A DNA stretch of 64,000 nucleotides from Betaproteobacteria bacterium HGW-Betaproteobacteria-16 (GTDB lineage: Bacteria; Pseudomonadota; Gammaproteobacteria; Burkholderiales; Burkholderiaceae_C). The notes under the pieces are model-generated. The model was given only the letters and a program-made list of their open reading frames with translations, was not told where the DNA came from and did not search any database. The stretch spans positions 62,001 to 126,000 of the forward strand of contig PHCQ01000014.1 of the NCBI GenBank assembly GCA_002840835.1, written 5' to 3'. Each line of letters opens with the position of its first letter. Position 1 is the stretch's first letter. Positions 20,264 to 23,186 of the stretch are shown here, piece after piece. Both the position numbers and the translations under genes were made by a program.

Positions 20264-21442
20264 TCAGGACTGTATGCGTTCAGGTGCGCTGGGCGGCGTT
20301 CGCAAGGTCCAGGCCAGGGGCGAGGCCAGACCAACAACTGATCCCACCAGCCAGAACACCGCCCCCACGCCGATCAGGGTTCCCGCCGATCCAAACAGCA
20401 AGGGCATGACCACACTCGACCCATTGATGGCCATGGCGCGCAAACCGAGGGCCTCGCCGTGGCGGTGGTGCGGCGTCATCTGATGCAGCGTGCTCATGAT
20501 CATCGGCTGCACCGAACCCAGTGCCACACCCAGCATCACCGAGAGCACCGCCATCGCCCATGCCACCTGTGCAAAGGGATACAGGCCAAACAGCACCGCG
20601 GTTGTCAGCATGGCCGCCCCGATCACCACCGATTCGCGCAGATGGGCAACCAACCAAGGCATCACCAGCCGGATACCAGTGGCGGCCAGGGCAAAGCCGC
20701 CCAGGATGGAACCGATCACCGTGGCGCTCAGGCCTCGCTCATGGCCCAGCACCGGTACGAGAAAGGTGTGAACGTCCCAGCAGGACGAAAGCAACCAGTT
20801 GACAATCATCAGCCGACGAAATCCCTTGTCGCGCAGCAGGTTCCATGACGAACCGCTGGACTGGCGAAGCCCGGGATCCACAGGCGCATGTTCAACGGTG
20901 TGGCGCACCCAGAACCATGCCAGCGAAGGCAACAGGGCGAGCAGCAGGAAGGCGGCCCGAAAGCCGAAGCTGTCGATCATCACACCGGCGGCAAAAGGGC
21001 CCAGGAAGTTGGAGATCGATGGCCCGATGGCCATCCAGCTGAACACCTGCTTGAGCTCGGTGGGGCCATGGGCGAGCCGGCCCACATGGCGCTGCAACGC
21101 GATCATCGCAAGGCCCGTTGCCGCACCACAGGCGAAGGCGGTCACACACAACACCGCAAAAACAGGAAAGGCCACCGCCAGCGCCGCGCCCACCGAGGCC
21201 ACCCCCACCGAGATCGCCACCGGTTTGCGAAGGCCGCGTCGGTCCGCATAGCGCCCGGCCGGCAAGGCGATGAACACCGTGGCCAGTGCAAAAAGCGCCA
21301 GCAGCACGCCCACGGCAGCAGGGCTGTATCCCTCTCGCAGCGCCATGAGCGGCGCGGCCATGCGAAATCCCGTCATGCAGGCATGAAGGCAGATTTGCGC
21401 CGCGATGAATCGCGAGAGCTCGGCGCGCAAAGCAGGGTTCAA
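20264..21442 (-). CDS. Major facilitator superfamily transporter
   Basis: A 392-residue, 12-helix MFS permease. The A-loop reads PAGRYADRRGLRKPVAI between helices 2 and 3 at about residues 61-77. The second half includes the matching GGFALAATGIRLVMPWLVAH segment. The substrate is unknown. The only start that keeps the whole first helix (RFIAAQICLHACMTGFRM) is TTG at 21442, because an in-frame TGA lies 13 codons upstream inside the adjacent mobile element. That TTG lies within the 5-bp target duplication of the element, and the natural ribosome site appears to have been displaced (see findings). Expression may therefore be altered. It is followed by mrpA after 105 bp. Confidence 0.85.
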   Translation of the reverse strand: MNPALRAELSRFIAAQICLHACMTGFRMAAPLMALREGYSPAAVGVLLALFALATVFIALPAGRYADRRGLRKPVAISVGVASVGAALAVAFPVFAVLCVTAFACGAATGLAMIALQRHVGRLAHGPTELKQVFSWMAIGPSISNFLGPFAAGVMIDSFGFRAAFLLLALLPSLAWFWVRHTVEHAPVDPGLRQSSGSSWNLLRDKGFRRLMIVNWLLSSCWDVHTFLVPVLGHERGLSATVIGSILGGFALAATGIRLVMPWLVAHLRESVVIGAAMLTTAVLFGLYPFAQVAWAMAVLSVMLGVALGSVQPMIMSTLHQMTPHHRHGEALGLRAMAINGSSVVMPLLFGSAGTLIGVGAVFWLVGSVVGLASPLAWTLRTPPSAPERIQS

Positions 21443-21676
21443 CCTAGAAACCGCAGTTGGACGGATCCGAGTGGGCCGTCAGGGGGAGGGCTGGCAAGGC
21501 GCGACGACGCAGCGGGCTCCTGCCCGCAAGGAGGAGCAACGCCGCCAGCGCGCTCCCTGGCGGCTCAATCGGGTCTGTAGCGCCTTCACCCATCAGGTGA
21601 GCCCCTTCGTGGTCAAGAATCTCAGTGTCCACGGGCACTTCCTGCGGACATGGCGCGGTCAACTGCGGTTTCTAGG
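21443..21676. mobile_element. 234-bp MITE-like element with 17-bp terminal inverted repeats and 5-bp target duplication
   Basis: The left end CCTAGAAACCGCAGTTG (21443-21459) and the right end CAACTGCGGTTTCTAGG (21660-21676) are perfect 17-bp inverted repeats. TTCAA directly flanks both sides (21438-21442 and 21677-21681), as expected for a 5-bp target-site duplication. The inside has no convincing gene. It contains a hairpin GCCGCCAG/CTGGCGGC at 21541-21564. Size, ends and duplication fit a non-autonomous miniature element. The CCTAGA terminus and 5-bp duplication resemble those I recall for the IS1380 family (for example ISEcp1), but the mobilising transposase is not in the window. Confidence 0.8.
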
Positions 21677-21677
21677 T

Positions 21678-23186
21678 TCAAGCGTCCCCGTTGTCGTTGG
21701 GGTCCAGGGGCAGCAGCGCACTGGCCTGCTCTTGCGGCAAGGCCTCTACCGTCTTCAACGCGCGACCCATGGCCCGGCTGCGGGTTTCAGCGTTGTCCAG
21801 TGTGTTGAGCACCGTCTGGGTCTGACTCTTGACCCTGGCAAGCACATCACCAAACTTGCCGAATTCGGTTTTGACCGCGCCCAGCACCTGCCAGACCTCA
21901 CTGGAACGCTTCTCAAGCGCCAACGTGCGAAAGCCCATCTGCAGGGAGTTGAGCATGGCCATGAGCGTGGTCGGCCCGGCCAGCGTGACGCGGTGTTCGC
22001 GCTGCAGTACCTCCATCAAACCCGGGCGGCGCAGCACTTCTGCATACAGCCCTTCCGTGGGCAGGAACAGGATCGCAAAATCGGTGGTGTGGGGTGGCGC
22101 CAGGTACTTGTCGGCCATCGACTTGGCTTCCAGCTTGATGCGTTGCTCCAGCCCTCGCCCGGCCGCCTCTGCACCTTCGGCGTCGGCACGCTGTTGTGCG
22201 TCGAGCAGCCTCTCGTAGTCCTCATTGGGAAACTTCGCATCGATCGGCAGCCAGCACGGCGTGCCGTCGTCGCCCCGGCCCGGCAACTTGATGGCGAAGT
22301 CGACCGTGAATCGGCTGTCCGGTTTGGTGATCACCTGTGTGGCGTACTGATCGGGCGCAAACACCTGTTCCAGCAAGGCGGCAAGCTGCGCCTCGCCAAA
22401 CATGCCGCGGGTCTTCACATTGGTCAGCAGGTGCTTGAGGTCGCCCACGCCCTGCGCCAGCGTCTGCATCTCTCCCAGTCCCTTGTGCACCGCCTCCAGC
22501 CGGTCGGCCACCTGCTTGAAGCTCTCGCCCAGGCGCGCCTGCAGGGTGCTCTGCAACTTCTCGTCCACCGTGGCACGCATTTCGTCCAGCTTGGCGGCAT
22601 TGCTTTGCTGCAGTTGGGTGAGCTGGCCGTCGAGCGTGGTCCGAATCTCGGTCAGGCGCCGGGCATTGCCTTCGCTCATGTCCTGCAACTGCCGGGTGAG
22701 TGTGTCTCCCAGCGTGCCCCGCAGTTGCACCAGTTGCTGCGCGAAGGCGTCGATCTGGGCGTTTTGTGTGCGGGTAGCCTCGGCCGCCTGGGTGTTCAGA
22801 TTCAAGCCCAGCGCCTGCAATTGGGCCGTCAAGGTATCGCCCAGCGTGCCCCGCAGTTGCATCAGCTGCTGGGCAAACGCATCCAGTTGGGCGTTCTGGG
22901 TGCGCGTGGCTTCGGCTTCCTGCCGGGACAGCGTTTCCTGGAACGTGGCCAGCGTCTGCTGGATTTCCTGGCGAGCGCTGCGCGCGTTGTCACCCATCTC
23001 CCGCCGCAATTCGCTTTCGGTCCGCTCCACGCGTTGGCCAATGGCCTGGATGTGTCCCAGCAGTTGCTGGTGATTCGCCTGTCCGTCCGCATCCACGGGA
23101 GGGCGGCGCACCACCAACCAAATGCCGATCAGAAGATTGCCAATCAGCAATGCCAGCATCACCCAGGTCAAGGTGACAACACTCAT
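21678..23186 (-). CDS. rmuC: RmuC-family DNA recombination protein
   Basis: A 502-residue protein with one N-terminal membrane helix (VVTLTWVMLALLIGNLLIGI), a long coiled coil (about 35-240), and the PD-(D/E)XK-related RmuC domain. The domain reads KTRGMFGEAQLAALLEQV, then WLPIDAKFPNEDYERL and FLPTEGLYAEVLRR. RmuC limits sequence inversions at short repeats; its biochemical activity is poorly known. The coiled coil contains a near-exact duplication with a 44-residue period: residues 92-124 and 136-168 both carry EATRTQNAQ[LI]DAFAQQL and LRGTLGDTLT. Its TGA stop lies inside the target duplication of the MITE. It overlaps the upstream dehydrogenase by 4 bp. Confidence 0.93.
   Translation of the reverse strand: MSVVTLTWVMLALLIGNLLIGIWLVVRRPPVDADGQANHQQLLGHIQAIGQRVERTESELRREMGDNARSARQEIQQTLATFQETLSRQEAEATRTQNAQLDAFAQQLMQLRGTLGDTLTAQLQALGLNLNTQAAEATRTQNAQIDAFAQQLVQLRGTLGDTLTRQLQDMSEGNARRLTEIRTTLDGQLTQLQQSNAAKLDEMRATVDEKLQSTLQARLGESFKQVADRLEAVHKGLGEMQTLAQGVGDLKHLLTNVKTRGMFGEAQLAALLEQVFAPDQYATQVITKPDSRFTVDFAIKLPGRGDDGTPCWLPIDAKFPNEDYERLLDAQQRADAEGAEAAGRGLEQRIKLEAKSMADKYLAPPHTTDFAILFLPTEGLYAEVLRRPGLMEVLQREHRVTLAGPTTLMAMLNSLQMGFRTLALEKRSSEVWQVLGAVKTEFGKFGDVLARVKSQTQTVLNTLDNAETRSRAMGRALKTVEALPQEQASALLPLDPNDNGDA

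Follow-up and report, generated by a model that had tools for sequence, protein, structure and literature searches.

A 234-bp IS1380-type miniature element between rmuC and an MFS gene, and signs of a conserved strand-specific RNA in its body

Miniature inverted-repeat transposable elements (MITEs) are usually read as transposon remnants, and the locus described here raises the question whether the body of such an element is instead maintained as an RNA. In a window of 64,000 nucleotides of Betaproteobacteria bacterium HGW-Betaproteobacteria-16 (contig PHCQ01000014.1, positions 62,001 to 126,000, forward strand; coordinates below are those of this window unless a locus is named), a 234-bp element lies at 21443-21676 between rmuC and a gene for a major facilitator superfamily (MFS) transporter. 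Comparison of its copies in other genomes suggests that the body is a conserved, strand-specific RNA and not transposon debris. The anatomy of the element and its past mobility, taken alone, are very probably described correctly, and the whole statement that we favour, an IS1380-type MITE with a conserved RNA body acting in cis, is held with slightly less than even confidence.

The structure proposed for the plus strand, derived from an alignment of 40 dissimilar copies, comprises helix P1 formed by the inverted ends, the 34-pair hairpin P2, a tip and the small hairpin P3, which together with the flanking sites and genes are placed as follows.

21443..21676, plus: the 234-bp mobile element, with the structured RNA on this strand, antisense to both flanking genes
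21443..21460, plus: left inverted end, 17 bp and one base; 5' strand of helix P1 (alignment helix 1)
21461..21495, plus: 5' arm of the long hairpin P2 (alignment helix 2; 30/34 pairs changed on both sides)
21496..21500, plus: conserved loop AAGGC of the tip module (alignment of copies)
21512..21527, plus: apical hairpin GCGGGC-TCCT-GCCCGC (fold; alignment helix 4)
21538..21543, plus: conserved loop AACGCN of the tip module (alignment of copies)
21544..21578, plus: 3' arm of P2 (alignment helix 2)
21586..21600, plus: small hairpin P3, TCACC-CATCA-GGTGA (alignment helix 6, mostly one-sided changes)
21659..21676, plus: right inverted end and one base; 3' strand of helix P1 (alignment helix 1)
21438..21442, no strand: left TTCAA duplication copy, whose minus strand holds the MFS TTG; empty site in 26/29 relatives
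21677..21681, no strand: right TTCAA duplication copy, whose minus strand holds the rmuC TGA
21678..23186, minus: rmuC, 502 aa, upstream gene (open reading frame and Pfam)
20264..21442, minus: MFS transporter gene, 392 aa, downstream gene (open reading frame and Pfam)

Paired cells amounted to 94.0% of 2879 (78.6 in shuffled alignments), changes on both sides were found in 46/72 pairs (30.8 shuffled) and covariation reached 0.435 as compared to 0.160, with none of 500 shuffles attaining the observed pairing, double-change and covariation values. Sliding the partners by 1-3 columns lowered the pairing to 35-41%, a comparison in which the true register is favoured because the structure was drawn from the tested sequences themselves. 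Compensatory double changes were present in 30/34 pairs of P2, several of them with all four Watson-Crick types, and the support for P3 and for the pairs 146-148/222-224 comes mostly from one-sided changes. Wobble pairs in P2 are distributed unequally, with G.T 207 and A.C 9 in 41 sequences and G.U 702 vs A.C 32 in all 145 copies, and this excess points to selection on one strand, the plus strand. In eight clusters, each grouping five or more copies that are at least 85% alike, single changes led to G.U in 91 cases and to A.C in 21. Consistent with this strandedness, 48/49 folded copies fold better on the plus strand, the window element itself reaching -144.4 kcal/mol (z -9.2) on plus and -122 (z -6.3) on minus, and a covariance model scores a Polaromonas copy at 219.5 bits on plus vs 28.5 on minus.

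At its borders, the element carries inverted ends CCTAGAAACCGCAGTTG, perfect over 17 bp, and the TTCAA target duplication at 21438-21442 on the left and 21677-21681 on the right, as had been recognised in the original prediction. An element end with up to 3 mismatches is confined to this single pair in the window, as compared to a mean of 0.13 and a largest count of 1 in 100 shuffles. The earlier designation as a MITE also holds, since the element lacks a transposase gene and a DNA search returned nine matches to it in the source genome, giving the several copies per genome expected of a MITE. The TGA of rmuC, read on the minus strand, lies inside the right TTCAA and the TTG start of the MFS gene inside the left one, so that the two codons are now held apart by the element. 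Both flanking proteins are intact, as previously claimed, and match Pfam RmuC at 1.7e-74 and MFS_1 at 6.9e-44, respectively. The bases preceding the MFS TTG are now the element end, TTTCTAGG, with no spaced Shine-Dalgarno-like stretch. That translation of the two genes is uncoupled, as the original prediction has it, is possible, but downstream expression must somehow persist at the comparable insertions described below. Before the P3 palindrome, and close to it, stands GTAGCG (21577-21600 with P3), a layout that resembles that of a repetitive extragenic palindromic sequence, in which GTAG precedes a small imperfect palindrome. A coding role of the element was rejected, since 141/145 copies are 231-238 bp long with lengths varying by single bases, and selection acts on pairing; a 611-aa open reading frame that runs through the element on the plus strand is antisense to rmuC.

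The state of this junction before insertion can be read from relatives. rmuC was located in 57/60 genomes of the genus and 30 loci were compared, one being the source genome's own. In 26 of the 29 others the MFS gene is next to rmuC and overlaps it as TTGA (24) or GTGA (2), in the remaining 3/29 a different gene is next, and the element is absent from the rmuC junction in all 29. This comparison, proposed together with the original prediction, thus recovers the empty site, and the predicted pre-insertion sequence GGGGACGCTTGAACCC is kept at the rmuC-MFS junction in several relatives. Absent from that prediction are the conserved RNA and its strand specificity, the breadth of the family, the bias in orientation and the sharing of the tip with other elements.

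Relatives of the element were obtained by DNA search in 12/60 genomes of mixed kinship (E<=0.001) and 12/67 genomes of the genus (E<=1e-10), the source genome being counted in both. Paired ends 218-248 bp apart occur in 10/399 genomes of the family and 8/250 of the order (source genome in both), with zero matches to the reversed end-pair pattern in the same 399 and 250 genomes. Named genomes contributed 80 stretches when scanned; the titles of their bins include Rhodoferax, Thiobacillus, Rubrivivax, Gallionellaceae, Hydrogenophilales, Rhodocyclales and, once, Lysobacteraceae. The covariance model matches 49/229 genomes of the class at E<=0.001 and 21/229 below 1e-19 (source included), two of the latter (G898 and G899) having other ends, and 16/299 genomes of the phylum at E<=1e-12, where matches above 100 bits come from four genomes, all of the same order as the source, and the best outside the class has 60 bits. 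The strict element pattern had 0 matches in viral contigs. Requiring up to 3 mismatches in each end, a length of 195-245 bp and the presence of the core yielded 145 distinct copies, 98 of them exactly 234 bp. Both flanks were readable in 143, of which 96 have identical 5-bp flanks and 31 more are one base off, and all 96 exact duplications read NTNAN. Longer relatives of about 316-322 bp (L001, L133, L145) have the same ends and an apparent insertion of some 80-90 bp. Nothing above the gathering threshold of Rfam was found in the window stretch or in 32 further loci; of four sub-threshold matches three are to microRNA precursors within elements, and the best (E 0.0007, a microRNA precursor) is read as a generic long hairpin.

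The ends and duplications also point to the mobiliser. IS1380 (PF13701) genes occur in 10/60 relatives and in 13/24 genomes selected for bearing the element. In the family, IS1380 elements with matching ends were found with both ends in 8/18 loci, L232 being a ninth, and other IS1380 ends differ by 1-3 mismatches in several loci. Exact 5-bp NTNAN duplications flank 6/9 of these elements (L082, L083, L084, L093, L099, L232); L086 is one base off, and L085 and L098 do not match. None of 12 IS1380 loci scanned in element-bearing genomes had a matching pair of ends. On a plasmid of Polaromonas sp. P1-6, an IS1380 element (L232 1858-3487, bounds as read; duplication TTAAA) is separated by 357 bp from a complete copy of the element (L232 3845-4078; flanks TTCAT/TTAAT, one mismatch), and their facing ends agree at 16/17 positions. 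A hypothetical protein gene, LP417_34705, has been annotated over this plasmid copy (L232 3903-4082) and is probably spurious. Palindromes with IS1380-type ends (CCTAGAAACC and like) were also seen at L534, L535 and L536 (~163-167 bp) and L549 (~180 bp); their interiors differ from the window element and lack the tip module. From the shared ends and the NTNAN duplications, we infer that an IS1380-family transposase, acting in trans and duplicating 5-bp NTNAN targets, would have mobilised the MITE.

An alternative is that the plus-strand fold was selected as single-stranded DNA, serving replication-coupled transposition, and not as RNA. G.T and tandem G.A pairs form in DNA too and the element contains no promoter, both of which suit this explanation; however, the element has ends and duplications of DDE (IS1380) type, a type with no single-strand step known to us, and a 15% share of wobble pairs would fit RNA better, so that we regard it as unlikely. 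Less probable again is an ordinary MITE whose palindrome is kept paired by DNA-level correction between the arms, with no role for RNA. MITEs with long fold-back transcripts are described as common (PMC2229807), and the ends of this element are perfect and symmetrical, yet arm correction would favour neither G.U over A.C on one strand (702 vs 32 in total, 91 vs 21 among single changes) nor the preservation of the unpaired loops AAGGC and AAC.

The gene context of copies was assigned on rejoined empty sites, with the left duplication copy kept, by a home-made caller that relies on a codon model and may miss starts. Only 21/143 copies lie inside a called gene, as compared to 72% of background sites matched for the 5-mer, and 66/143 are intergenic. 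In 56/143 the duplicated 5 bases contain a neighbour's stop or start codon (background 2.8% of all sites and about 10% outside genes), and in 14/143, among them the window's copy, the upstream stop and the downstream start both lie within these bases (background 0.03%). The 14 copies belong to 10 sequence clusters, and a control for missed starts, setting 14 of the 45 stop-containing sites against an assumed overlap rate of 10%, gives p 8e-5. Pfam supports five of the 13 other overlap pairs, namely mraW-ftsL and mreC-mreD (G055), an LptF/LptG pair, ruvC-ruvA, and a phosphoribosyltransferase with an aspartate/ornithine carbamoyltransferase; the remaining eight are named by eye. The gene downstream of the mraW-ftsL copy in G055 is the single FtsL match in that genome. 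Both ftsL and the lipopolysaccharide exporter are essential, and the presence of the element before a sole ftsL, an lptF/lptG-type gene and mreD implies that downstream expression must survive there somehow. At L185, a single ABC-ATPase gene has a copy at either end (1501-1736 and 2458-2693), both of them in start-stop overlaps, and the genes beyond look, by eye, like HlyD-type and permease genes.

Such positions might reflect hairpin-bridged coupling, whereby the paired ends in host mRNA bring the upstream stop close to the downstream start and reinitiation crosses the element; the 14/143 copies placed exactly in start-stop overlaps, including the one before the sole ftsL of G055, and the ability of the ends to pair in both strands speak for it. 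It requires the ends alone, and leaves the conserved tip and the strand bias unexplained; it is given as low a probability as arm correction. The strand bias was obtained from the 122 copies outside genes, taking the RNA strand as plus and neighbours within 300 bp. Both neighbours are minus in 48 copies and plus in 14 (p 1.7e-5), the left neighbour is minus in 66 and plus in 30 (p 3e-4) and the right neighbour minus in 72 and plus in 26 (p 4e-6). For copies inside genes the host gene is minus in 17 and plus in 4 (p 0.007). The centre base of the duplication, which requires no gene calling, is biased in the same direction, with C in 50 and G in 22 (p 0.0013), but counted by cluster 14 vs 7 (p 0.19). 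The window copy follows the majority, its RNA strand running against both neighbours.

Returning to a conserved RNA body acting in cis, the following sequence of events may be proposed. The plus strand, as comparison of the copies shows, folds into the long hairpin with its tip carrying a conserved two-sided internal loop, and this hairpin may act on transcripts that enter the element from the left, module-bearing end. In its simplest form the action would be double-stranded RNA processing or a stop signal read by a host factor, with RNase III as the simplest candidate. In operons, the surviving copies would then be chiefly those that host transcripts enter from the opposite end, and the element between rmuC and the MFS gene would lie in the tolerated orientation. 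A signal harming downstream expression would accord with the bias against the module in host mRNA. This cis-acting role is possible and tentative, and we place it a little below the whole statement given at the outset.

A promoter inside the element was considered and rejected, since none is conserved among copies: none was found in window 21200-21900, and of 88 dissimilar copies no more than 3 show, at a spacing of 16-18 from TTGACC/TTGGAC, a hexamer that shares 4/6 letters with TATAAT. Other spacings on the minus strand give more TATAAT-like hexamers (21 at spacing 27), taken as chance composition. Production of a trans-acting small RNA by some copies, for which MITE-derived small RNAs reported in Coxiella (PMC5896051) offer a precedent, is the least probable of the alternatives, as no promoter is conserved in the element.

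Several observations weigh against the reading that we favour. No promoter is conserved in the element and most copies lie antisense to the flanking genes, neither of which accounts for a plus-strand RNA. Within the clusters of like copies, pairs were disrupted by single transversions 55 times, and double changes ended unpaired in 39 cases vs paired in 24. One-strand folding of DNA would leave the same trace of conservation. Finally, the IS1380-type mobilisation proposed in the original prediction is made plausible by the existence of IS1380 elements with like ends and NTNAN duplications, but no PF13701 match was found in the source genome itself (G000, a 232-contig draft).

The tip module, in which AAGGC faces AACGCN across a two-sided internal loop, recurs in elements with other ends. 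Twenty weak hits of the covariance model, a mixed set several of which score on both strands, were fetched: 13 (L531, L532, L533, L537, L539, L540, L541, L543-L547 and L550) are palindromes with non-IS1380 ends, L538, L542 and L548 are poor or divergent, and the other four are L534, L535, L536 and L549, the palindromes with IS1380-type ends and no module. L230 and L318 join the 13, and in these 15 palindromes, of at least eight end types by eye, the tip reads like GGCAAGGC...GCAACGCNGCC. Using a script that chooses the best-pairing placement, 31 tip regions were aligned; in 26 of them (five near-duplicates left out) the first loop is AAGGC in 23 and the second AACGC in 19 and AACAC in 3. In 20 of the 31 (dropping the poor L542 and L548, the near-duplicates L546, L547, L158, L146 and L232, and the plasmid loci L551-L554), the outer pairs are formed in 208/240 cases as compared to a mean of 134.6 and a maximum of 162 in 1000 whole-arm shuffles, and the inner pairs in 84/100 as compared to 60.2 (maximum 73), values that are biased by hits found with a model containing the tip and by placements chosen for pairing. 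Wobble in the outer helix is G.T 29 and A.C 4.

Among unselected inverted repeats of the collected bacterial loci, 53/75 with IS1380-type ends carry the module, as do 8/25 without such ends. Six of these eight lie in loci retrieved by the model or the module, and the true bystanders are L148 1779-1949 and L024 2592-2863, the latter in the source genome. Elements of ~270 bp with CTAGGGCCTGTT-type ends (L543, L545, L546, L553) carry the module once per strand, about 57-107 bases from each end; L024 2592-2863 is of this type, with a degenerate minus-strand module. In the window element, the module lies about 54-100 bases from the left end. The plasmid matches of the tip offer little independence: those in Azotobacter (L551) and Halomonas (L553) have ends like L545, a Caballeronia plasmid copy also matches the window element, and the ends of the Pseudomonas aeruginosa plasmid match (L552) were not found. 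No match to the L531-type element was obtained in plasmids or Escherichia coli genomes. In viral contigs, the tip pattern has at least 120 stretches, of which 80 were examined. L384 is the one module-bearing palindrome among these, and the others appear to be coding sequence matched by chance; a further stretch outside the 80, L415, is also such a palindrome. The complementary control pattern gave 87 matches, none with a module-bearing palindrome. Pattern matches alone thus mean little. Whether one RNA module (stem, AAGGC, arm with apical hairpin, AACGCN, stem) is the functional cargo of many MITE families with unrelated ends, and hence unrelated transposases, at a similar distance from the end and in some on both strands, appears evenly balanced to us. 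If it is, the tip would serve tiny mobile elements in bacterial operons as an RNA device independent of the transposon.

The significance of the locus thus lies in a MITE body that appears conserved as RNA across many gammaproteobacterial families, with a tip recurring in elements with other ends and copies occupying the start-stop overlaps of tight operons. Two questions thereby become open to test, namely if small transposons bring along an RNA component that determines how they affect host transcripts, and what host factor recognises it. In agreement with the original prediction, which knew of no description of the element, none of it or of the tip module was found in the open-access literature (most subscription papers and all preprints being outside this scope). 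Among known systems, the IS1380 family is likest at the ends: the left end of ISEcp1 begins CCTAGATTCTACGT and a 5-bp repeat is formed (PMC7864471), and IS1247 generates 5-bp repeats (PMC3281130), so that ends starting CCTAG/CCTAA and 5-bp duplications are shared. The window element differs in having 234 bp and no transposase gene, and in a conserved RNA body, absent from the IS1380 elements examined. QMITE1 and QMITE2 of Coxiella burnetii resemble it as MITEs with very stable folds, which gave rise to small RNAs (PMC5896051); their direct repeats differ, and QMITE1 is reported there without orthologues elsewhere, whereas the family of the window element spans many gammaproteobacterial families. 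Correia/NEMIS, ERIC and YPAL repeats are likewise short, non-coding and mobile, with inverted ends and folding transcripts, and NEMIS transcripts are proposed substrates of RNase III (PMC2229807). Those repeats mostly have TA at their ends and other inverted ends, whereas the window element begins CC and ends GG without the TA, has IS1380-type ends and 5-bp NTNAN duplications, and belongs to a family with a strand-specific conserved tip common to several element types.

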